A stretch of DNA of 64,000 nucleotides from Dehalococcoidia bacterium (GTDB lineage: Bacteria; Chloroflexota; Dehalococcoidia; Tepidiformales; Tepidiformaceae): positions 1 to 64,000 of the forward strand of contig JAJEIT010000006.1 of the NCBI GenBank assembly GCA_022827945.1, given 5' to 3'. Position numbers and translations under genes: made by a program. A model generated the notes under the pieces. The model had not been told where the DNA came from. It worked only from the letters and a program-made list of their open reading frames with translations, and ran no database searches. This document shows, one piece after another, positions 26,457-43,687 of this stretch (its first letter is position 1; every line of letters begins with the position of its first letter).

Positions 26457-27827
26457 ATGTCGTCGACCTTTCGCGCGATCCCGAGCGTCGATGCGGTGCT
26501 GGGCGAGCTACGCAGCAATGGCTCGTGGCCGCACACCCTCGCGGTGGAAGCGGCGCGCACGGCCATCGAGCGGGCGCGGGAGGCGGTGAAGGAGGGGGCG
26601 GAGGCGCCGAGCGTCGCGACCATCTCGGCGGAGGCGGAGGCGATTCTGGAGGAGCTGGCGCGCCCGTCTCTGCGGCGGGTCGTGAACGCGACGGGCGTCA
26701 TCCTGCAGACGAACCTGGGACGGGCGCCGCTGAGCGAGCGGGCGATGGCGGCGATGGCCGAGGCCGCCCGCGACTACACAAACCTCGAGTTCGACCTGGA
26801 GCACGGGAGCCGGGGCAGCCGGCACGAGCACGTGCGCGACCTGCTGCGGCGCACGACGGGCGCGGACGACGGGCTGGCGGTGAACAACAACGCGGCCGCC
26901 CTGCTGATGGCCCTGCACGTGTTCGCACGGGGCGGGGAGGTGATCGTGTCGCGCGGGGAGGCGGTGGAGATCGGGGGGCGTTTCCGCATTCCCGACGTCC
27001 TGCGCGAGAGCGGGGCGGAGCTGGTGGAGGTGGGGACCACGAACCGGACCTACGTCGAGGACTACGCGAACGCGATCAGCGAGGAGACGGCGGCGATCCT
27101 GCGGGTGCACCGCTCGAACTTCCAGGTCACCGGATTCACCGCCCGACCCGAGCTCGGGGACCTGGCGGCGCTCGCGCGGGAGCATGGGGTGCTGTTGCTC
27201 GACGACCTCGGCAGCGGGTGCCTGGTCGAGACGGCCGACTACGGCGTCGAGCACGAGCCAACGGTGCGGGAAAGCCTCGAGGGTGGAGCCGATCTGACGC
27301 TGTTCAGCGGGGACAAGCTCCTGGGCGGGCCGCAATGCGGGCTCATCGTCGGGCAGGGGGAGCTGGTGGCGACGCTCCGGCGCCATCCGCTGGCCCGAGC
27401 CTTGCGGGTCGACAAGCTCACGATTGCGGCGCTCAACGCGACGCTGATGGCGTACGTGGGAGGAACCGAGCGCGAGGAGATCCCGGTCTGGCGGATGCTG
27501 GCGCTCGAGCGGGAGCACCTGGAGCCGCGGGCGCGGGCGTGGGCGGAAGCAGGGGGCGGCCGCGTGGTGGAGTCCCGCTCGATGATAGGGGGCGGGGCGG
27601 CGCCCGGGGCGGGGCGGACGACCTGGTGCGCGGCGCTGCAGGGGGAGCAGGGCGGAGAGGGGCTGGCGCGGTCGTTGCGGCACGCGCACCCGCCGATCGT
27701 GGCGCGTGTGGAGGCGGGCGAGACGCTGCTCGACCCGCGTACCGTCGCCGAGCGCGACGACGAACACGTTACGGCCACCATCGAGGCGCTGCTGCGGACG
27801 GGGTCGTCAGACGGTTCACACTTGTAA
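26457..27827 (+). CDS. selA: L-seryl-tRNA(Sec) selenium transferase
   Basis: 456 aa PLP enzyme converting Ser-tRNA(Sec) to selenocysteinyl-tRNA(Sec). Full-length SelA with the N-terminal IPSVDAVL segment, NATGVILQTNLGRAPL, NNNAAALLMAL, SRGEAVEIGGRFRIPDV, GTTNRT, LLLDDLGSGCLV and the PLP lysine K287 in SGDKLLGGPQ. The N-terminal domain argues against the shorter SelA-like ammonia-lyase paralogues. selB, selC and selD are not in the window, and none of the tRNAs here is tRNA-Sec. rex follows from its own promoter. Confidence 0.93.
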   Translation: MSSTFRAIPSVDAVLGELRSNGSWPHTLAVEAARTAIERAREAVKEGAEAPSVATISAEAEAILEELARPSLRRVVNATGVILQTNLGRAPLSERAMAAMAEAARDYTNLEFDLEHGSRGSRHEHVRDLLRRTTGADDGLAVNNNAAALLMALHVFARGGEVIVSRGEAVEIGGRFRIPDVLRESGAELVEVGTTNRTYVEDYANAISEETAAILRVHRSNFQVTGFTARPELGDLAALAREHGVLLLDDLGSGCLVETADYGVEHEPTVRESLEGGADLTLFSGDKLLGGPQCGLIVGQGELVATLRRHPLARALRVDKLTIAALNATLMAYVGGTEREEIPVWRMLALEREHLEPRARAWAEAGGGRVVESRSMIGGGAAPGAGRTTWCAALQGEQGGEGLARSLRHAHPPIVARVEAGETLLDPRTVAERDDEHVTATIEALLRTGSSDGSHL

Positions 27828-27880: not shown

Positions 27881-27898
27881 ATGTTCGATTTTTCACAA
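27881..27898. promoter_or_regulatory. Weak candidate Rex site in the rex leader
   Basis: The right half TTCACAA (27892-27898) matches the Rex consensus TTGTGAA-N4-TTCACAA perfectly, but the left half matches only 3 of 7. It lies about 10-27 nt after the expected start point, where binding could block transcription. Confidence 0.35.
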
Positions 27899-27951: not shown

Positions 27952-28590
27952 ATGACCTCTGACATCCCCGAGGTTGTCATCAACCGGCTGCCGCTCTACG
28001 CGAGGGCGCTGACCACGCTTGCGGCAGCAGGCCAGACGGTGGTCAGCTCGCAGACGCTCGGCGAACAACTCGATGTGACGCCGGCGCAGATTCGCAAGGA
28101 TCTGAGCTACTTCGGGCGCTTCGGCAAGCAGGGCCGCGGCTACAACGTGGGCGACCTGCTGGACCGGCTGCGCACGATCCTCGGGTTGGACAGGTCCTGG
28201 AGCGTGTGCGTAGTCGGCATCGGGCGGCTGGGCCAGGCGATCCTGGAGTACGACGGGTTCGCGCAGCAGGGGTTCGACACCGTGGCGGCGTTCGATGCGG
28301 CACCCGACGTCGCAGGGCGGACGATCCAGGGCATCGAGGTGCGTTCGATGGACGACCTTGAGGACTACCTCAGCAGCAAGCAGGTCGACATCGCGGTCGT
28401 GGCGGTCCCGGCGGAGGCGGCCCAGGCAGTCGTCGACCGGCTGGTCGAGAGCGGCGTACACGCCATCCTGAACTACGCGCCGATCTCGGCGCACGTTCCC
28501 GAAGGCGTCTCCATCCGGCAAATCGACCCCGTCGTGATGATGCAGGGGATGACGTACTACCTGAAGGAGCTCGCGCCGCACGCCAGCTAG
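27952..28590 (+). CDS. rex: Redox-sensing transcriptional repressor Rex
   Basis: 212 aa. N-terminal winged helix (about 8-80) with the signature DVTPAQIRKDLSYFGRFGKQG and GYNV; then a Rossmann domain with VVGIGRLGQAI (GxGxxG, 89-94). The family binds DNA when NADH/NAD+ is low and releases it when NADH rises, controlling respiration and fermentation genes. ATG 27952, with AGGAGG about 12 nt upstream. A near-consensus target overlaps the ATP synthase promoter in this window. Its TAG shares CTAG (28587-28590) with the convergent gene. Confidence 0.97.
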   Translation: MTSDIPEVVINRLPLYARALTTLAAAGQTVVSSQTLGEQLDVTPAQIRKDLSYFGRFGKQGRGYNVGDLLDRLRTILGLDRSWSVCVVGIGRLGQAILEYDGFAQQGFDTVAAFDAAPDVAGRTIQGIEVRSMDDLEDYLSSKQVDIAVVAVPAEAAQAVVDRLVESGVHAILNYAPISAHVPEGVSIRQIDPVVMMQGMTYYLKELAPHAS

Positions 28591-31992: not shown

Positions 31993-32438
31993 CTAGCCTC
32001 CCGGCATGGGCGGGCCGGGGCGCCGGCGGCGGCGTTCGGCCACGCGCAGACGGAGGAGAGCGCGCTGCATGGACGCCTGGGCGCGAGCGAGGTCGGCTTC
32101 GCTCACGCCCTCGTCGCGGGCGCCCGCGAGCTGCTCCTCGGCGCGGCGGCGGGCCTGCTCGGCGCGATCCACATCGATTTCCTCCGCAGCCTCCGCCACA
32201 TCGGCGAGGACGGTGACGTGGTTGCTGTGCACCTCGAGGAAGCCGCCGCCGATGGCGAAGGCGGACTCCTCGTTGCCGCGCCGGAAGATGAGCTCGCCGT
32301 AGTCGAGCGTCGTCATGAGCGGGGCATGGCGAGGCAGGATCGCGAGCTGCCCCTCGCTGCCGGGAGCGATGAGCACCTCGACGTCCTCTTCGGTGCGGAC
32401 GACACGCTCGGCGGTGACGATTTCGACGAAGAGCGGCA

Positions 32439-32439
<1 letters not shown>
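31993..32439 (-). CDS. atpC: ATP synthase F1 subunit epsilon
   Basis: 148 aa. N-terminal beta-sandwich (VEIVTAERVV, GSEGQLAILPRHAPLMTTL, FAIGGGFLEVHSNHVTVLAD) and a C-terminal helical hairpin (AEQARRRAEEQL ... RAQASMQRALLRLRVAERRRRR) that can brake the motor. The GTG start overlaps the atpD stop by one base (TAGTG). Last gene of the ATP synthase operon. Confidence 0.95.
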
Positions 32440-35266
<2,827 letters not shown>

Positions 35267-35274
<8 letters not shown>

Positions 35275-36163
35275 TAACGACGGCCTCGGCGCCACCGACG
35301 ATGTCGAGGAGCTGGGTGGTGATCTCCTCCTGGCGGGCCTTGTTGTAAGTGAGGGTCAGCTCGCGCTCGATCTCGTTGGCGTTGTCGGTCGCGTTCTTCA
35401 TCGCGACCATGCGGGCCGACTGCTCGGAAGCAGCCGACTCAAGGATGGCGGCGTGGACCTGCATCTCGACGTAGCGGGGCAGGAGGCGCTCGAAGACCTG
35501 GCCGGGGTCGGGCTCGAAGATGTACTCCTGCCTGAAGGCCTCGGCTTCCGCCTCGTCTTCGGCCGTGGGCGGCTCGACGGGGAGGAGGCGGCGCACGACC
35601 GGCCGCTGGTTCACCGTGCTGACGAACTCCGCAAAGCTGATGAACACCTGGTCGACGTTGCCCGCGAGGTAGTCGTCCATGACGAGCCGGGCGATGACGC
35701 TCGTATCGGTGAGGGCGGGGTAGTCGCCGAGCTCGGTGAACTCGGCGGCGACGTTCTGGCGGGAGCGAACGAAGAAGTCCCGGCCCTTGCGGCCAACGGC
35801 GACGATCGCCGTTGGCGTTTCGGCCTCGCCGACGAAGCCACCGGCGCTGTTGTTGAGGTTGGCGTTCAGAGCGCCGCAGAGACCGCGGTCGGGGGTGATG
35901 TGGAGGATGCCGACGTTTTCGACGGGGCGCTGGGTGAGGAAGGGATGCGACTCCTCGCTGTCGCCGTCCTCGCCGCCGCCGGGGGCGGTGGAGGCGAGAG
36001 AGGAGAGGACGAGCTGGATCTTCTCCGCGTAGGGGCGGCCCTCGGTGGCCCGCTCCTGGGCGCGACGCATCTTGGACGCGGCCACGAGCTGGAGCGCGTT
36101 CGTGATCTTGGCGGTATTGCGAACCGACCCGATGCGGCGGCGGAGCTGTTGGATGGTGGGCAT
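35267..36163 (-). CDS. atpG: ATP synthase F1 subunit gamma
   Basis: 298 aa central rotor shaft. N-terminal helix IQQLRRRIGSVRNTAKITNALQLVAASKMRRAQ, the Rossmann-like middle with ITPDRGLCGALNANL, and C-terminal helix MVAMKNATDNANEIERELTLTYNKARQEEITTQLLDIVGGAEA are family signatures. ATG 36163, 9 nt after atpA. Confidence 0.97.
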
Positions 36164-36171
36164 GGCGCTCC

Positions 36172-37674
36172 CTAGTAGGGGACGGTCTCCTTGAACTCGG
36201 CGACGGCGTCCCGCAGCTCCTGGTCGGTCTCGTCGCTGATCGTGCGCTCGGACTCGATGCGGGCGGCGAGCTCGGGCTTGTTGCTGGAGAGGTAGCCGGT
36301 GAAGGCGGTCTCGAAGTCCGCGATCTTCTCGGTGGGCACGTCATCGAGCAGCCCGTTGGTGAGGGCGAAGATGACGGCGACCTCCTCGGGCAGGCTCAGC
36401 GGCGCGAACTGGGGCTGCTTGAGCACCTCGTTGGCGCGCAGGCCGCGCTCGAGCTGCCGCTGGGTTGCGGCGTCGAGGTCGCTCGTGCCGAACTGGGCGA
36501 ACGCCTGCAGCTCGCGGAACTGGGCGTGGTCGAGCTTGAGCCGCCCGGCGACGGAGCGCATGGCGCGCGTCTGGGCGGAGCCGCCCACGCGGCTCACGGA
36601 GAGGCCGACGTTGAGGGCGGGGCGGATGCCAGCGTTGAAGAGGTCCGGCTCCAGGTAGATCTGGCCGTCGGTAATGGAGATGACGTTGGTGGGGATGTAG
36701 GCCGAGACATCGTTGGCCTGCGTCTCGATGATGGGGAGGGCCGTGAGCGAGCCGCCCGCCTCCAGCTTGGCCGCACGCTCGAGCAGGCGGCTGTGGAGGT
36801 AGAAGACGTCGCCGGGGTACGCCTCGCGCCCGGGAGGACGGCGGAGGAGCAGCGAGATCTGGCGGTAGGCCCAGGCGTGCTTGCTCAGGTCGTCGTAGAT
36901 GATGAGGGCGTCGCGCCCGCTCTCCATGATCTCCTCGCCCATGGCGCAGCCGGCGTAGGGCGCGAGGTACTGGAGGGCAGCCGACTCGGAGGCGCCGGCG
37001 GCGACGATGATGGTGTGCTCCATGGCGCCGTACTCTTCGAGCTGGCCGAGCACCTGGGCGACCTTGCCGGCCTTCTGGCCGATGGCCACGTAGATGCAGA
37101 CGAGGTCGCCGCCCTTCTGGTTGATGATCGTGTCGAGGGCGATGGCGCTCTTGCCGGTGGAGCGGTCGCCGATGATGAGCTCGCGCTGGCCGCGGCCGAT
37201 GGGAATCATCGAGTCGATGGCCTTGATGCCGGTCTGGACGGGCGTATCGACGCTCTGGCGGAGGGTGACGCCGGGGGCGATGCGCTCGACCGGGCGAGTC
37301 TTCGTCGAGCCGATGGGGCCCTTGCCGTCGATGGGGTTCCCGAGGGCATCGACGACGCGGCCGATGAGCTCGTCGCCCACGGGCACCTCGATGATGCGGC
37401 CGGTGGCGCGCACCTCGTCGCCCTCCTTGATGTCCTCGTAGTCACCGAGGACGACGGCGCTGACGGACTCTTCCTCCAGGTTGAGGGCGAGGCCCATGGT
37501 GCCGTTGGGGAACTCGAGCAGTTCGGAGTAGCGAGCATTGCTGAGGCCGTGAGCGCGAGCCACGCCGTCGCCGGCTTCGATGACGACGCCAACGTCGGTC
37601 GCGACGGACGGAGCCTCGAACTGCTCGATCTGCTCGCGGAGGATGGATGCAATCTCTTCGGCGCGAACGGCCAT
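36172..37674 (-). CDS. atpA: ATP synthase F1 subunit alpha
   Basis: 500 aa. P-loop GDRSTGKS (169-176; usually GDRQTGKT), [65 protein letters not shown] and the arginine-finger region [17 protein letters not shown]. Holds the non-catalytic nucleotide sites. Standard position between atpH and atpG. Confidence 0.97.
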
Positions 37675-37701
37675 AGTGGTTCCCTCTTGTGTGGTGCGGC
37701 C

Positions 37702-38232
37702 CTAGGCGCCGCTCAGCTCCTGGCGCAGCCGCCGAAGACGGCTACGCACGCTGCCATCGATGAGATGGTCGTCGATGCGGAGGACGACGCCACCGATGAT
37801 GTCGGAGTCGACACTGGCGGTGGCGGTGATCTGCTTCCCCAGAGCCTCGCCCAGACGCTGCTCCATGGCGGCAACCTGGGCGTCCTGCAAGGGGACGGCA
37901 GTGGTGATCTCGGCCTGCGCGAGGCCCTCATGCTCGTCGGCGAGACGGTTGAAGGCGTCCGCGACCTCGCGGGCCTCCATCGTGCGCCCCTTGGCGATGA
38001 GCAGCCTGGCGAGGTTCAGCGCGAGCGGCCCCACTTCGAGGGCGCGTGCGGCCCCTGCCTGCCGTTCGGCCACGGGCACGCGCGGGGCGGCGAACCAGCC
38101 CGCGGCGTCGGAGTCCGCCAGGACGGCGGCGACGTCGTCGAGGTCGGCGCGCCACTGGGCGATCGCATCGCCGTCGCGGGCGATGGCGAAGGCCGCCTGT
38201 GCGTAGCGCTTTGCCGCCTGCCTGTCGGCCAT
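37702..38232 (-). CDS. atpH: ATP synthase F1 subunit delta
   Basis: 176 aa. N-terminal six-helix domain starting DRQAAKRYAQAAFAIARDG and C-terminal ITTAVPLQDAQVAAMEQRLGEAL ... VDSDIIGGVVLRIDDHLIDGSVRSRLRRL, typical of the stator-linking subunit. ATG directly abuts the atpF stop. Confidence 0.95.
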   Translation of the reverse strand: MADRQAAKRYAQAAFAIARDGDAIAQWRADLDDVAAVLADSDAAGWFAAPRVPVAERQAGAARALEVGPLALNLARLLIAKGRTMEAREVADAFNRLADEHEGLAQAEITTAVPLQDAQVAAMEQRLGEALGKQITATASVDSDIIGGVVLRIDDHLIDGSVRSRLRRLRQELSGA

Positions 38233-38745
38233 CTAGCTGCGCTCCCCGAGGTCGGACTCAGCCAGGGTCTCTTCGATGATGCGCTGGTGGGCGCTGTCGT
38301 CGAGGGACTGGCGGATGACCCGCTCGGCGGCGGTGACGGTGATCTCGGCGAACTCCGCGCGGAGGTCGGCGATGGCACGGTCACGCTCCAGCTGGATTTC
38401 CTGGACCGAGCGCTCGGCTGCTGCCTCGCGGTCGCGTTCCGCCTGCTGGCGGGCCTCGTCCTGGATGCGGGCCGCCACCTGCTGGGCGTTGGCCACGATC
38501 TCCTGACCCTGTCCGCGGGCCTCGGCAAGCTGGGCCTCGATGCGCTCCTGCGCGTCGGAGGCTTCGGCGCGGGCCTGTTCGGCGGCGCCGAGGCCTTCGG
38601 CGATGCGCTCGCGACGCTGGTCGAGCATGCGCAGGACCGGCTTGTAGAGGGTGAAGCGCAGGATGAGGAGCAGAACCACGAAGTTCGCGATCTGCGCGAT
38701 CAACTGCGGCAGATTGATACCGAGAGCGGTGAAAGCCTCGCCCAT
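38233..38745 (-). CDS. atpF: ATP synthase Fo subunit b
   Basis: 170 aa. One N-terminal membrane helix (about 10-32, LPQLIAQIANFVVLLLILRFTLYKPV) followed by a long charged helix rich in Ala, Glu, Arg and Gln that forms the peripheral stalk. Single copy, so a b2 homodimer is expected. Confidence 0.95.
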   Translation of the reverse strand: MGEAFTALGINLPQLIAQIANFVVLLLILRFTLYKPVLRMLDQRRERIAEGLGAAEQARAEASDAQERIEAQLAEARGQGQEIVANAQQVAARIQDEARQQAERDREAAAERSVQEIQLERDRAIADLRAEFAEITVTAAERVIRQSLDDSAHQRIIEETLAESDLGERS

Positions 38746-38783
38746 CGCGAGCTCCCTTCTTCCCGATTGGCGTTTCCGCCGGG

Positions 38784-39113
<330 letters not shown>

Positions 39114-40424
39114 CTACTGCCCCGGGGTCCCCTGGGATTCCATGTCGTCGTGGCCGGCTTCGCCTTCGTGGTCGTCGTGCTCCTCGTCGTGGTGCTCGAC
39201 GGCCATGACCGCGAACACGAGCGTGAGGAGTGCGAAGACCGCGGCCTGGATGAAGCCGACGAAGAGCTCCAGGCCGTAAATGATGTCGACGATGAGGAAC
39301 GGCAAGAGGAAGGTGAGCATCAAGATGAGCACCTCCCCGGCGAAGATGTTTCCGAAGAGCCTGAAGGCGAAGCTGACGATGCGGATGAACTCCGAAAGCA
39401 GCTCGAGGATGCCGACGAAGAAGGGGATGGCGCCGCTGAAGTTGAAGAACTTCCCGAGGTAGCTGAACCCGAGGGTGCGCAGGCCCCAGAACTCGACCAT
39501 GAAGAACGAGATGAGCGCCAGCGCGATGGTGTTGTTGACGTCGCTGTAGACCGAGCGGAAGAGCGGGATGATGAGGGCCAGCTTCTGGCCGGGGAAGTCG
39601 ATGCCGCCGACGATAAGCTCGTCACCGAGAATGTCGCTGGCGACGCCATGACCGTGATCGCCGGGCAGGAGGTCGGGCGCGTCGGGGTCGGCCGCAAGGG
39701 CGGCGAGTGCGCCCTCCAGCATGGCGGGCGTGACCTCGACGGCGCCGTGGCCACCCCCACCCTCGACGTAGTCCTCCGTGTCGAAGTCGGTGAAGGTCTC
39801 CGCGAGGAAGACGATGTACTTGTCGAGCGCCTGCTCGGCGGAGACGGGCGTCTCGGGCGTGGCGCCCATCTCGAAGTGGGCGTCGTCCGCATTCGGCCGG
39901 ACGAGGCCGATTCCGACGTTGTCCACGAGCCAACCGGAGGAGTGCGCGATCTCCTCCTTGAAGGGCTCGTGATCGACGTGGTGCTCCTCGATGTAGTGGA
40001 AGACCTCGACGCCGATGTCCTCCGTCTTGCCGATGGCGTTGAAGAAGGGCAGGAGGCCCATCCAGTTGGCGAGGAGGATGAAGATGAAGAAGGTCGCGAT
40101 GACGGGGAAGAAGCGGCGGGCGTTGCTGGTGCCGGCGATGTCCTCCAGCTGACCCATCAGGAACTCGATGATGGACTCGACGAAGTTCTGGGCGCCCGTG
40201 GGGATGAGCTTCATCGTGCGGGTCGCGAGGAAGCAGCCGACGAGGAGAATGAACATCGCCGCCCAGGCGGAGATCATCGTGTTGGAGATGTTGAGGAAGC
40301 CGACCTTGGTGATGACCTCGGCGGGAACGATGATCTCGGGCTGCGGGCCGCGGGCGACGATGAGGCCGACGACGACCCACGCGAGCGCCGCGATGATGAT
40401 GAGAGGGAGCCTGAACCTTCTCAC
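39114..40424 (-). CDS. atpB: ATP synthase Fo subunit a with a large extra loop and His/Asp-rich tail
   Basis: 436 aa against about 230-310 in most bacteria. Canonical parts: WMGLLPFF (about 121-128), the essential Arg355 in SFAFRLFGN, and FIQAAVFALLTLVFA near the end. Between about 132 and 283 lies an acidic, His-containing hydrophilic insertion (EVFHYIEEHHVDHEPFK, EGGGGHGAVEV, LPGDHGHG) between membrane helices. The C-terminus ends with a tail such as EHHDEEHDDHEGEAGHDD. GTG 40424 overlaps the atpI stop. Confidence 0.95.
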   Translation of the reverse strand: MRRFRLPLIIIAALAWVVVGLIVARGPQPEIIVPAEVITKVGFLNISNTMISAWAAMFILLVGCFLATRTMKLIPTGAQNFVESIIEFLMGQLEDIAGTSNARRFFPVIATFFIFILLANWMGLLPFFNAIGKTEDIGVEVFHYIEEHHVDHEPFKEEIAHSSGWLVDNVGIGLVRPNADDAHFEMGATPETPVSAEQALDKYIVFLAETFTDFDTEDYVEGGGGHGAVEVTPAMLEGALAALAADPDAPDLLPGDHGHGVASDILGDELIVGGIDFPGQKLALIIPLFRSVYSDVNNTIALALISFFMVEFWGLRTLGFSYLGKFFNFSGAIPFFVGILELLSEFIRIVSFAFRLFGNIFAGEVLILMLTFLLPFLIVDIIYGLELFVGFIQAAVFALLTLVFAVMAVEHHDEEHDDHEGEAGHDDMESQGTPGQ

Positions 40425-40681
40425 TCGCTACCGCCGTTGGCGCCGTTGGCGCCACCGCCAAAGCGTTTCATGAAGGGGAGAAGCATGCGGATTCCGCCAC
40501 CGATGGCCAGAGTCAGTCCCAGGACTATCCCCAGGAGGATGAAGAGCGGCTCGAGTCCGGTGAGGTTGTCGAGCCAGAGTCCGAGCACGATTCCGACGAC
40601 GATGCAGGTGGCGAAATACCAGCCTGCCCCCATGAGGTAAGCGGTTGGCGCTATCCATCCGCCGCGCTCGGGCTTCGCCAT
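40421..40681 (-). CDS. atpI: AtpI/AtpZ-like small membrane protein
   Basis: 86 aa with two membrane helices (about 13-36 and 45-68; YFATCIVVGIVLGLWLDNL, LFILLGIVLGLTLAIGGGI), the usual first gene of atp operons, implicated in c-ring assembly or Mg/Ca handling. ATG 40681 chosen because ATG 40732 lies within the promoter. Confidence 0.8.
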   Translation of the reverse strand: MAKPERGGWIAPTAYLMGAGWYFATCIVVGIVLGLWLDNLTGLEPLFILLGIVLGLTLAIGGGIRMLLPFMKRFGGGANGANGGSE

Positions 40682-40702
40682 GACCGCGCTCAAACCGCGG
40701 GG

Positions 40703-40732
40703 ATCATAGGGTGATTGTGAAGAGATGCGCAA
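40703..40732 (-). promoter_or_regulatory. ATP synthase operon promoter
   Basis: Minus-strand TTGCGC (40732-40727), 18-bp spacer, TATGAT (40708-40703), about 21 nt before the atpI ATG. Confidence 0.65.
40715..40732. promoter_or_regulatory. Near-consensus Rex operator overlapping the atp promoter
   Basis: Plus-strand TTGTGAA-GAGA-TGCGCAA against the consensus TTGTGAA-N4-TTCACAA: left half 7/7, right half 5/7. It covers the -35 box and part of the spacer, so a bound Rex would block RNA polymerase. Confidence 0.55.
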
Positions 40733-40756
40733 GCGAGCATCGGGGCCGCCCCGCGC

Positions 40757-41290
40757 TTACCGGTTGGGATCGTCGAACCCGCTCAGATCGAGGCCCTCGA
40801 TGAAGTCCTTGAACGGCCCGAGGCGCTCCAGTTCGGCGGGATCGACGGGCTTCTCCGGCTCGCGCTCGACACCCTCCTGCTCGTCGCCGTCGCGGATGAT
40901 CTCGCCGCCCTGGTCGAGGACAGCCTCTTCGGCATAGATGGGGGAGCCGGTGCGGACGGCGAGGGAGATGGCGTCGGAGGGACGGGAGTCGATCTCGACG
41001 GCGTCGCCGTTCACATCGAGGACGATGCGGGCGTAGTAGGTGTCGCGCGCGAGGTCGTTCAGGAGGATGTACTGCACCTTCCCGCCGAGCTGCTCGATGA
41101 CGTTGCAGAGCAGGTCGTGGGTCTGGGGGCGGGGCGGGGTGACGTCGTGGAGGCGGAGGGAGATGCTCTCGGCCTCGTAGGGGCCGATCCAGATGGTGAG
41201 GTAGCGATCAGTCTCCTTCTCCCGAAGGATGGCGATGCGCTGGTAGCTGTTCAGCGAGAGACGGATGCTCTCGATGCTCATCTCGCGCAT
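40757..41290 (-). CDS. Bifunctional nuclease (DUF151/BFN) family protein
   Basis: 177 aa. Core MSIESIRLSLNSYQRIAIL ... LTIWIGPYEAESISLRL ... QTHDLLCNVIEQLGGKVQYILLNDL, then YYARIVLDVNGDAVEIDSRPSDAISLAVRTGSPIYAEE, the DUF151 signature with the SRPSDA motif. Acidic C-terminal tail. Plant members are reported nucleases; the bacterial role is unclear. ATG 41290, with ATG 41281 possible. Confidence 0.9.
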   Translation of the reverse strand: MREMSIESIRLSLNSYQRIAILREKETDRYLTIWIGPYEAESISLRLHDVTPPRPQTHDLLCNVIEQLGGKVQYILLNDLARDTYYARIVLDVNGDAVEIDSRPSDAISLAVRTGSPIYAEEAVLDQGGEIIRDGDEQEGVEREPEKPVDPAELERLGPFKDFIEGLDLSGFDDPNR

Positions 41291-41373
41291 GTCCCACCCC
41301 CCGCCGGAAGGTTCCGGCTCGATCGGCTCGATGATAGGTGGGCGCAGCGAGGGGCGGCAAGGCGCGCCGCCGC

Positions 41374-42738
41374 TCAGGACCGGAGATTGACGACGGTGGC
41401 GGCGGCGATGCTGACGGCGAGGATGGCCATGACGGGCTGCACGCCGAGCCAGTCTCCGAGGGCGCCGGCGCCCAGCACCGGCAGGGAAGCGGCCAGCGCC
41501 GCCATCGCTCCTTGCGTCGCGACCACGCGGCCCTGGAGGGCCAGCGGGACCCGGTCGTTGAGGACGGTTTGCGCGGCAACGCTCACGTTCGCATAGGCGA
41601 ATCCGAGGGGGAGGACGATCACCATCGCGAGCAGGGCGCCGCTGTCGAAGTCCCCGAGATGGACATCGTCGAGCCAGGCGAAGGCGCCGTAGCCGGCGAG
41701 GAAGGACGCTTCCTCGTTGACGAAAGCGAGGGCCAGTAGCAATCCCGTGAAGGCCGCGAACCCGACGGAGCTGAGGAGACCGTGGGGCAGGTGGTGCGCC
41801 AGCGGCCCGGCAATGCGCAGGCCAACGATGACCCCGATGGCGGCTGGCGTCAGGACGAGGGCGCCGATCTCGAAGGGAAGCTCGAGGATGTCGCGGATGT
41901 AGGTGGGGATGAGGCCGCCAAGGATGATGAGCATCATCGTGATGAGGGTGAGCTCGATGGCGGCCTTGAAGACCACGGGGTCGCGGCGCATGGCCCGCCA
42001 GCCGACCTGCCACCAGGAAGCGCCCTCGGCGGGTTGCGGGGGGATCGCCTCGGGAACAGCGCCGACCACTGCCGGGTCGGCTGCCGGCTCGGGCGGCAGG
42101 AACACGTCGGGTTCCTCCCGTGTGCGCGCCACGGGACCGATGCGGACGGCCTCAAGGGCCGCGATCACGAACAGCGCCGCGCCGATCCCGAAGAGCGCGT
42201 CGGCGCGCTCGAAGACGCGCAGGACGACCGGCGTGAGCACGGCAAACCCGACGATCTGGGCAGCCCCGCCAACCGCCTGGCCGATGGCGTTCGCGCGGGC
42301 GAGCTCGCCCCGCGTGACGATCGAGGGAAGGATCGAGCCCTCGGCGGCCGCGACGAAAGGCGCGGCGACGGCAAGGAGGACGGCAACCACGTAAAGCGTC
42401 CCGGTCTCTCCGGGATACACGATGAAGCCGACGCAGACAGCGGCGCGAGCGAGGTTGCCGAGCGCGACGATGAGACGGCGGGGGATGGCGTCCGCGGCAA
42501 CGCCGGCGATGATGCCCGCGACCATCATGGGCACGACGAGGGCGAGGACGAGGAGGCTGGTGTAGAAGGCCTTGCCTGTGGCGTCGAGGACGAGGAGGAC
42601 GAGTGCGAGGTTGAGGGCGTTCTGGGCGATGCGGGAGAAGAAGCGGGAGGAACTGAGGCGGCGAAACGGGATCTGCTGGAGGAGGGCAGGGGGCGCCGAG
42701 GGCTCGGCGACGTCCTCCCAGGCAGGGGCTGCGCTCAC
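41374..42738 (-). CDS. MFS-type transporter
   Basis: 454 aa, about 12 membrane helices in two halves joined by a Pro/Glu-rich cytoplasmic loop (about 205-245). RFFSRIAQNALNLALVLLVL and the helix 2-3 loop DAIPRRLIVALGNLAR fit the MFS_3-like drug exporter type. Substrate unknown. GTG 42738 overlaps the stop of the DUF951 gene (GTGA). Confidence 0.8.
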   Translation of the reverse strand: MSAAPAWEDVAEPSAPPALLQQIPFRRLSSSRFFSRIAQNALNLALVLLVLDATGKAFYTSLLVLALVVPMMVAGIIAGVAADAIPRRLIVALGNLARAAVCVGFIVYPGETGTLYVVAVLLAVAAPFVAAAEGSILPSIVTRGELARANAIGQAVGGAAQIVGFAVLTPVVLRVFERADALFGIGAALFVIAALEAVRIGPVARTREEPDVFLPPEPAADPAVVGAVPEAIPPQPAEGASWWQVGWRAMRRDPVVFKAAIELTLITMMLIILGGLIPTYIRDILELPFEIGALVLTPAAIGVIVGLRIAGPLAHHLPHGLLSSVGFAAFTGLLLALAFVNEEASFLAGYGAFAWLDDVHLGDFDSGALLAMVIVLPLGFAYANVSVAAQTVLNDRVPLALQGRVVATQGAMAALAASLPVLGAGALGDWLGVQPVMAILAVSIAAATVVNLRS

Positions 42739-42926
42739 GAGGCGGCGCTGACCCGCGACTTCGCGCGCTGCTCGAAGCGGCGGCGCTCCAGCATCACGCG
42801 GCGCCCGCACTCAAGGCAGACGAGGCCGATATCGGCCCCGACGCGGTAGACGCGCCACTCCCAGCCGCCGCAGGGGTGGCGCCGGCGCATCCGCCAGACA
42901 TCGCCGACGGCTACCTCGTCGTTCAC
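42735..42926 (-). CDS. DUF951 family protein
   Basis: 63 aa. RRHPCGGWEWRVYRVGADIG and LVCLECGRRVMLERRRFE: the conserved HPCG ... CxxC pattern of DUF951, probably a small metal-binding protein, widespread in Firmicutes and Chloroflexota. Its ATG overlaps the pyrF stop (42923). Confidence 0.9.
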   Translation of the reverse strand: MNDEVAVGDVWRMRRRHPCGGWEWRVYRVGADIGLVCLECGRRVMLERRRFEQRAKSRVSAAS

Positions 42927-43687
42927 GGGGCGGGGGCATTGAGGGCGTCGCGCAGCTCCCGCGCGGCGGCGCCCGGGTCCGGGGCGTTGGCGATGCTGCG
43001 GGAGGCGTTCACGACCATGAGACCGTACTCGGCCTTCGTCGCGGCCACGACCTCTGCGGGGTCGCCGCCCTGCGCGCCGACGCCGGGCACGAGCAGGGTC
43101 GCCCGCGGGGCAAGCTCGCGCACGCGCGCGAGCTCGGCGGGCGCGGTCGCGCCGACGACGAGGCCGACATTCGCGCTCCAGGACGGCATCTCGGCGGCGA
43201 GGCGTTCGTAGAGGGGCCCGCCGTTCGCGAGCGTGGCGTTCTGGATGGTGGCGGAGCCGGGGTTGGAGGTGCGGCAGAGGAGGTAGACGCCCCGGTCCTC
43301 GTAGTCGAGGAAGGGCTGCACGGCATCCTGGCCCTGGAAGGGATTCACGGTGGCGGCGTCGAAGTCCCAGACCTCGAAGAGGGCGCGGGCGTAGGCGGCA
43401 GCCGTGTTCCCCATGTCGCCGCGCTTGGCGTCGGCGATGACGGGGATGCCGTCGGGGATGGCTTCGAGAGTCTCTTCGAGGGCGTGCAGACCGGGGATGC
43501 CGAACTGCTCGTAGAAGGCGAGGTTGGGCTTGTAGCAGGCGGCGTAGGGGGCTGTCGCTTCGATGATGCGGCGGTTGCGATCCGCGACCTCCGCGATGGG
43601 CGTGTCGCCGGCGGGGTCGAGACCGACGCAGACGTAGCTGCCGACCTCGCGGCTGCGGCGGGTGAGGCGCTCGACGTAGGACGTCAC
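42923..43687 (-). CDS. pyrF: Orotidine 5'-phosphate decarboxylase (type 2)
   Basis: 254 aa; last step of UMP synthesis. VCVGLDPAGDTP, YKPNLAFYEQFG, the catalytic DAKRGDMGNTAAAYA (DxKxGD), VNPFQGQDAVQPF and LLVPGVGAQGGDP identify the long type 2 form. GTG overlaps the murI stop (GTGA), so murI-pyrF-DUF951-MFS form one overlapping run. Confidence 0.95.
   Translation of the reverse strand: MTSYVERLTRRSREVGSYVCVGLDPAGDTPIAEVADRNRRIIEATAPYAACYKPNLAFYEQFGIPGLHALEETLEAIPDGIPVIADAKRGDMGNTAAAYARALFEVWDFDAATVNPFQGQDAVQPFLDYEDRGVYLLCRTSNPGSATIQNATLANGGPLYERLAAEMPSWSANVGLVVGATAPAELARVRELAPRATLLVPGVGAQGGDPAEVVAATKAEYGLMVVNASRSIANAPDPGAAARELRDALNAPAP

Follow-up and report, generated by a model that had tools for sequence, protein, structure and literature searches.

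Rex and ATP synthase genes in described systems

The redox-sensing repressor Rex controls ATP synthase genes in Streptomyces avermitilis, where, as far as the accessible text of the study goes, it represses the atpIBEFHAGDC operon and NADH weakens its binding (PMC5355995). The same text reports a Rex footprint on the atpI promoter from -50 to -22 over TTGTGATACGGTTCACGA, which covers the -35 (PMC5355995). By our own count, this site scores 12/14. Contacts between Rex and its operator have been described for Thermotoga maritima, for which the accessible sections on a Rex-operator DNA crystal (7WB3) list twelve DNA-contacting residues (PMC8836258).

Literature searches, whose coverage left out most subscription papers, turned up no paper that pairs Rex with Chloroflexus or Dehalococcoidia; when 'Rex operator' was combined with ATP synthase and NADH, the S. 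avermitilis study was the sole result. A comparison of Rex regulons published by Ravcheev and colleagues in J Bacteriol in 2012 reportedly places the Chloroflexi among the phyla with Rex, with the same generalised consensus.

The locus considered here lies in the window, the whole stretch of 64,000 nucleotides of contig JAJEIT010000006.1 that was analysed, whose nearest named relatives are Dehalococcoidia metagenome-assembled genomes (MAGs). Comparative sequence evidence indicates that an 18-bp element in this window is very probably the operator through which Rex would repress the atpI-B-E-F-H-A-G...D-C operon, with release by NADH and a switch shared with other respiratory operons.

A predicted Rex operator before atpI

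The original prediction of a near-consensus Rex site, matching 12 of 14 positions, was confirmed by a scan of the window, which places it at 40715-40732. The 18-mer TTGTGAAGAGATGCGCAA (plus strand) matches TTGTGAA-N4-TTCACAA at 12/14, within the limit of about three mismatches expected of a Rex operator, with one half matching in full (7/7) and its partner at 5/7. Along the direction of atp transcription it reads TTGCGCATCTCTTCACAA, with the variant half first and the consensus half TTCACAA second. The element sits within the 75-bp gap that separates atpI, with its ATG at 40681, from the preceding gene, which ends in TAA at 40757. This neighbour (40757-41293, minus strand) encodes a bifunctional nuclease domain protein (PF02577), and its stop lies 25 bp from the operator.

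Sites of this quality are rare. First-order Markov sequences with the composition of the window yield an expected 0.025 sites at 12/14 per 64 kb, and no second site of at least 11/14 occurs anywhere in the 64-kb window. In the whole genome (G000; 2,848,629 bases or 2.85 Mb in 99 contigs), the pattern is found at 26 places with at most three mismatches, compared to 7 for a reversed control pattern. At most two mismatches are reached at just 3 places, TTGTGAAGAGATGCGCAA among them, so that the concern that sites of equal score might be common did not materialise.

The operon downstream lies on the minus strand. Its first gene, atpI (40421-40681), scores above the PF09527 cut-off; a listed TTG start at 40732 falls inside the operator and is an unlikely start. 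The next gene, atpB (39114-40424), encodes subunit a, with PF00119 above cut-off in two stretches, matches to NCBIfam subunit A models and an insertion of ~150 residues. Further atp genes (35267-39047), named by recognition from the open reading frame list and translations without model runs, would encode the c (38784-39047), b (38233-38745), delta (37702-38232), alpha (36172-37674) and gamma (35267-36163) subunits. Beta and epsilon genes (31993-34664) follow after two non-atp genes and were recognised by eye from their translations, beta inside the frame 32439-34664 and epsilon at 31993-32439. The two genes separating gamma and beta (33878-35295, minus strand) resemble, again by eye, a HAD-like hydrolase and an enoyl-CoA-hydratase-like protein. 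The subunit a insertion spans residues about 130-281, between the two PF00119 stretches, and matches nothing in Pfam significantly. Full-length alignment to atpB is seen for most members of the family; outside it, the alignments of most class members fall into two pieces that leave the insertion out.

Promoter architecture and conservation in the family

A Rex operator would be expected to overlap or adjoin the promoter of a gene with a respiratory or redox role. Here, the minus strand reads TTGCGC (40732-40727), an 18-bp spacer (ATCTCTTCACAATCACCC) and the -10 hexamer TATGAT (40708-40703), such that the predicted operator covers the -35 and spacer of the atp promoter, whose -10 is conserved. 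The -35-like hexamer TTGCGC, itself part of the operator, is inferred and weak, matching TTGACA at 3/6 only, and an automatic sigma-70 scan did not list the atp promoter because of this low match. The putative promoter assignment therefore rests on the -10, which is kept at fixed spacing in 31/31 family promoters, as is the invariant TTGCGC 18 bp before it. The earlier claim that the site covers the -35 and spacer of the atpI promoter thus stands with regard to position and the conserved -10, and is weaker with regard to a -35 that matches at three positions and was missed by the scan.

From the -10 to the start codon, the short leader (40660-40700; family loci L017-L045) is conserved across genera as GG-TCTGGAG-TCCGGG, more than would be expected of a plain leader. 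A search of Rfam with positions 38000-43000 matched nothing.

Conservation was assessed in a family set of 36 genomes (G000-G035), 32 of which have a match to the a subunit. The contigs of two of these (G016 and G018) end at the a-subunit gene, leaving 30 genomes, and a second copy in G024 brings the number of readable promoters to 31. All 31, from 30 genomes and 14 genera, carry TTGCGC-N5-[TG]TCACAA followed by a TATNAT-like -10 at constant spacing; the row selection demanded the TTGCGC and TCACAA letters, yet every readable promoter passed. Relatives that keep the operon and lack the site, which would have spoken against the original prediction, were not found among these promoters. With one weight per genus, the TTGCGC and TCACAA columns hold 2 bits each and the -10 columns 1.2-2 bits, while columns from -45 to -12 are mostly below 0.5 bits. 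One genome (G031; 81% complete, 850 contigs) keeps the atp site, and rex was not found in it.

Two family members have additional copies. G024 carries two atp operons (L027 and L114), both with an operator of the TTGCGC-N5-TTCACAA type. In G008, a second a-subunit match (L117, contig C16) lacks the insertion and a Rex site and lies in a stretch of 41% GC; it is either a foreign operon or contamination.

The regulator and other predicted targets

The presence of rex in the window, also part of the original prediction, was verified at 27952-28590 (plus strand). The 212-aa product is a bona fide Rex. It scores 269.5 bits against the NCBIfam Rex subfamily model NF003995 (cut-off 126), combines the winged-helix N-terminal domain (PF06971) with the Rossmann domain (PF02629), and matches solved Rex chains (e.g. 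3ikt, E 6e-45, residues 2-206 covered). Of the DNA-contact residues expected of a Rex protein, R48, K49, Q46, G58, G61 and Y64 are present, and no other PF06971 protein is encoded in the genome. A candidate autoregulatory site, ATGTTCGATTTTTCACAA (27881-27898), scores 10/14 taken alone and follows a promoter with TTGACC (27838) and TATAGA (27860). The pattern TTTCACAA is kept upstream of rex in 29/30 family loci. The gene adjoining rex is selA (26457-27827, plus strand; TIGR00474), which suggests selenocysteine use; no tRNA-Sec was found within the window.

Related sites at other respiratory promoters had been anticipated, and they were found at nuoA, cox, the cytochrome b gene of the bc complex and rex itself. 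In the window's own genome, sites of at least 11/14 precede coxB, nuoA, a NuoE-like [2Fe-2S] gene, cytochrome b (bc complex) and ctaG. Sites of at least 10/14 at the gene start recur in 16/16 close orthologues of coxB, in 20/20 family members for nuoA and in 27/30 family loci for rex. The ctaG(-sco) site is present in 8/9 members of the genus and in 0/6 other family members, and is therefore genus-specific. More distant coxB-like matches (L148-L161, 14 rows) include four with a site of at least 10/14, two of these near the start, and a second nuoA (C98) has an 11/14 site about 210 bp upstream. Two other candidates were set aside: fdxA is a doubtful regulon member, with at least 10/14 in 6/9 genus members and a TTCACA that is also a good -35 for TACTAT, and a site at C95 was rejected, being downstream of its NifU-like gene.

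At cox, nuoA and rex, the site lies immediately downstream of a mostly TATA-type -10, with a TTGAC-type -35 at cox and rex. From there it would overlie the start point. In the window's own genome, the sites at cytochrome b and at the NuoE-like gene likewise come after a TATA-type -10. For cox, TTGCGC/TTGCGA-N-TTCACAA is found just downstream of a separate TTGACA/TATAAC-type promoter, so the variant half cannot serve there as a -35. This argues, from sequence comparison, that the variant half at atp is probably also kept for Rex. A single case of apparent loss fits the same picture. G016, in which rex was not found (86% complete) and which is the one such family member with both sites readable, contributes the sole coxB and nuoA rows without TTCACAA (TTGTGGCGAGACTCTCAA and TAGTGAAAATTTTGTAAA), as would be expected of decay.

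The operators also appear polarised. Apart from ctaG, which is even, the downstream half is the consensus one: this holds for cox, nuoA and rex as for atp, and also for the NuoE-like gene and cytochrome b. Across genera, the upstream half does not vary within atp and hardly varies within cox and rex; it is TTGCGC at atp, TTGCGC/A at cox and GTTAC/GTTCG at rex, with variable letters at nuoA. This polarity rests on orthologue alignments, as the -10-anchored nuoA and rex patterns already demanded the downstream half; the -10 filter was passed by 7/16 cox, 19/20 nuoA and 24/30 rex loci. The TTGCGC half departs from consensus at two positions and the departure itself is fixed, pointing to selection beyond plain consensus; the affinity could be tuned, or the half could be under a second constraint. 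A tentative extension, possible rather than probable, is that Rex in this family uses polarised operators with TTCACAA downstream and an operon-specific upstream half, giving a graded NADH set point for each operon, and that Rex control of atp is an old trait of the phylum.

Co-occurrence with rex across the class and phylum

If the element is a Rex operator, its presence should track rex. Outside the family, a class set of 22 genomes has a site of at least 10/14 in the promoter zone in 10/13 genomes with rex vs 1/9 without, for a zone of 300-480 bp that was fixed after sites had been seen. Among the genomes without rex, G042 has an 11/14 match ~900 bp away, outside the zone, two had short regions of 383 and 570 bp, and G050, in which rex was not found (85% complete), has a 10/14 site. 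The site is absent from 3/13 class genomes with rex at the 10/14 cut-off.

The pattern was repeated in an even sample of the phylum. Of its 101 genomes, 95 were analysed over the last 800 bp upstream of the a-subunit gene (620 bp in one region). The six uncounted genomes are the window's own, two that gave no match, and G047, G048 and G049, which were already in the class set. One copy each was read for G067 and G110, which have two a-subunit copies, and four genomes with sub-threshold PF06971 matches were scored as without rex. Sites of at least 11/14 are found in 23/37 genomes with rex vs 1/58 without (Fisher p 2e-11), leaving 14/37 rex genomes with no site at this cut-off, and sites of at least 12/14 in 14/37 vs 0/58 (Fisher p 3e-7). 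Genomes within one taxonomic family are not independent, and the test by family is weaker: a site in at least half of the genomes is found in 5/12 families with rex vs 0/24 without (p 0.002). Simulated sequences give a site in 1-3%. A reversed-motif control, which covered 65/95 regions, gave 0/33 with rex, where the real motif gave 22/33, and 2/32 without. Between families, the operator letters vary (GTGTGAATGTTTTCACAA, TTGTGAAAGAGTTCTCAA, TTGTGATATAATTCACTA and others) while the dyad stays, and the element shifts relative to the -10, which in some operators seems itself embedded. A conserved promoter alone does not explain varied operators that track rex.

Alternative explanations and proposed regulation

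The dyad could instead belong to a regulator of the CRP/FNR family; CRP/FNR operators and the Rex motif have the core TGTGA-N6-TCACA in common. The genome has three HTH_Crp_2 matches, such matches are present in 55/60 relatives, and the ctaG site TTGTGAGAAGAATCACAA and several class-level sites (TTGTGATATAATTCACTA) are compatible with either protein. However, site presence in the class set is indifferent to HTH_Crp_2 (9/18 genomes with a match vs 2/4 without) and follows rex instead, and G036 and G041 have both the site and rex, yet no CRP match. The two operators differ at four positions that played no part in the selection. At these, 40 core matches from 50 rex genomes show ratios of Rex to CRP base of 21:10, 24:10, 25:6 and 33:5. 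The flanking and inner bases are thus of the Rex type rather than the CRP type that would accompany the core in a CRP/FNR operator, and sequence comparison makes CRP an unlikely regulator of this site, with a small residual probability.

Even less probable is that the locus is merely a strongly conserved promoter, with TTGCGC as the -35 and an incidental resemblance to a Rex site. The atp operon is expected to be highly expressed, and the fixed 18-bp spacing of TTGCGC and TATGAT throughout the family would suit such a promoter. A sigma-70 promoter, however, needs no conserved spacer, and TTCACAA within this one is nearly invariant; the same TTGCGC/TTGCGA-N-TTCACAA recurs at cox, where a -35 role is impossible, other sequences of the same dyad take over outside the family, and site presence tracks rex. 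As for a chance match in a high-GC genome, the motif is degenerate over its 14 positions, and the reversed pattern finds its 7 places at up to three mismatches. Chance is nonetheless virtually excluded and already refuted by conservation: the 2.85 Mb hold only three places at up to two mismatches, and all 31 promoters of relatives keep the site.

Rex repression of the atp operon is therefore the preferred reading. The site, its promoter position, its conservation, its co-occurrence with rex and the related sites at other operons are established at the level of sequence. For this organism, we infer Rex binding, repression and the NADH response. At low NADH/NAD+, an NAD+-bound Rex dimer would occupy 40715-40732, over the -35 and spacer, and block RNA polymerase. 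A rise in NADH, as under oxygen or acceptor limitation or reductant overflow, would lead to NADH binding that moves the DNA-binding domains, upon which Rex would leave and ATP synthase would be made. Cytochrome oxidase and complex I would be under the same switch, as would rex itself and, very probably, the bc complex, so that the oxidative phosphorylation chain would be set together. The comparative evidence supports the predicted placing of ATP synthase under Rex. Its direction, with repression at low NADH/NAD+ and release as NADH rises, would follow from established Rex behaviour and from the accessible account of atpIBEFHAGDC in S. avermitilis (PMC5355995).

Judging from comparative sequence, Rex would bring both ATP synthase and further oxidative-phosphorylation operons under NADH sensing in a Chloroflexota clade that is known here from metagenome-assembled genomes only. 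Across the phylum, the presence of rex predicts an operator on the atp operon, and the fixed deviations from consensus offer a concrete, testable case of operator tuning.

Comparison with known systems

The protein and its operators can be compared with T. maritima Rex as far as the accessible crystal description goes (PMC8836258). Assuming collinear numbering, 9/12 contact residues are identical (R12, S33, Q46, R48, K49, S52, G58, G61 and Y64), whereas Q34, T43 and Q60 differ. The crystal operator ATTTGAGAAATTTATCACAAAA comes from a different gene (TM0201) and is asymmetric too: A replaces T at the fourth half-site position, for which that description reports no contact. In our reading, the half-site bases contacted in ATTTGAGAAATTTATCACAAAA are T1, T2, G3, G5 and A6. 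All five are retained in TTGCGA and four in TTGCGC; position 4 (consensus T) lies outside the reported contacts, and TTGCGC lacks the A contacted through Lys49 in T. maritima Rex.

The closest described system remains S. avermitilis, again within the accessible text (PMC5355995). Both loci share the target operon, the consensus TTGTGAANNNNTTCACAA, two mismatches and a position over the -35 and spacer. As in S. avermitilis, where NADH relieves repression, nuo and rex are predicted to be co-regulated. There, regulation was demonstrated by experiment, whereas here it is predicted from sequence. Unlike the S. avermitilis site (TTGTGATACGGTTCACGA), one half of the operator here is TTGCGC throughout a family, and the predicted targets include coxB and probably the bc complex. 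The kind of regulation is thus already known from the Streptomyces atpI promoter, while the lineage, the quantified phylum-wide co-occurrence of rex and site, and the asymmetric operators, with one fixed and one gene-specific half, are new.
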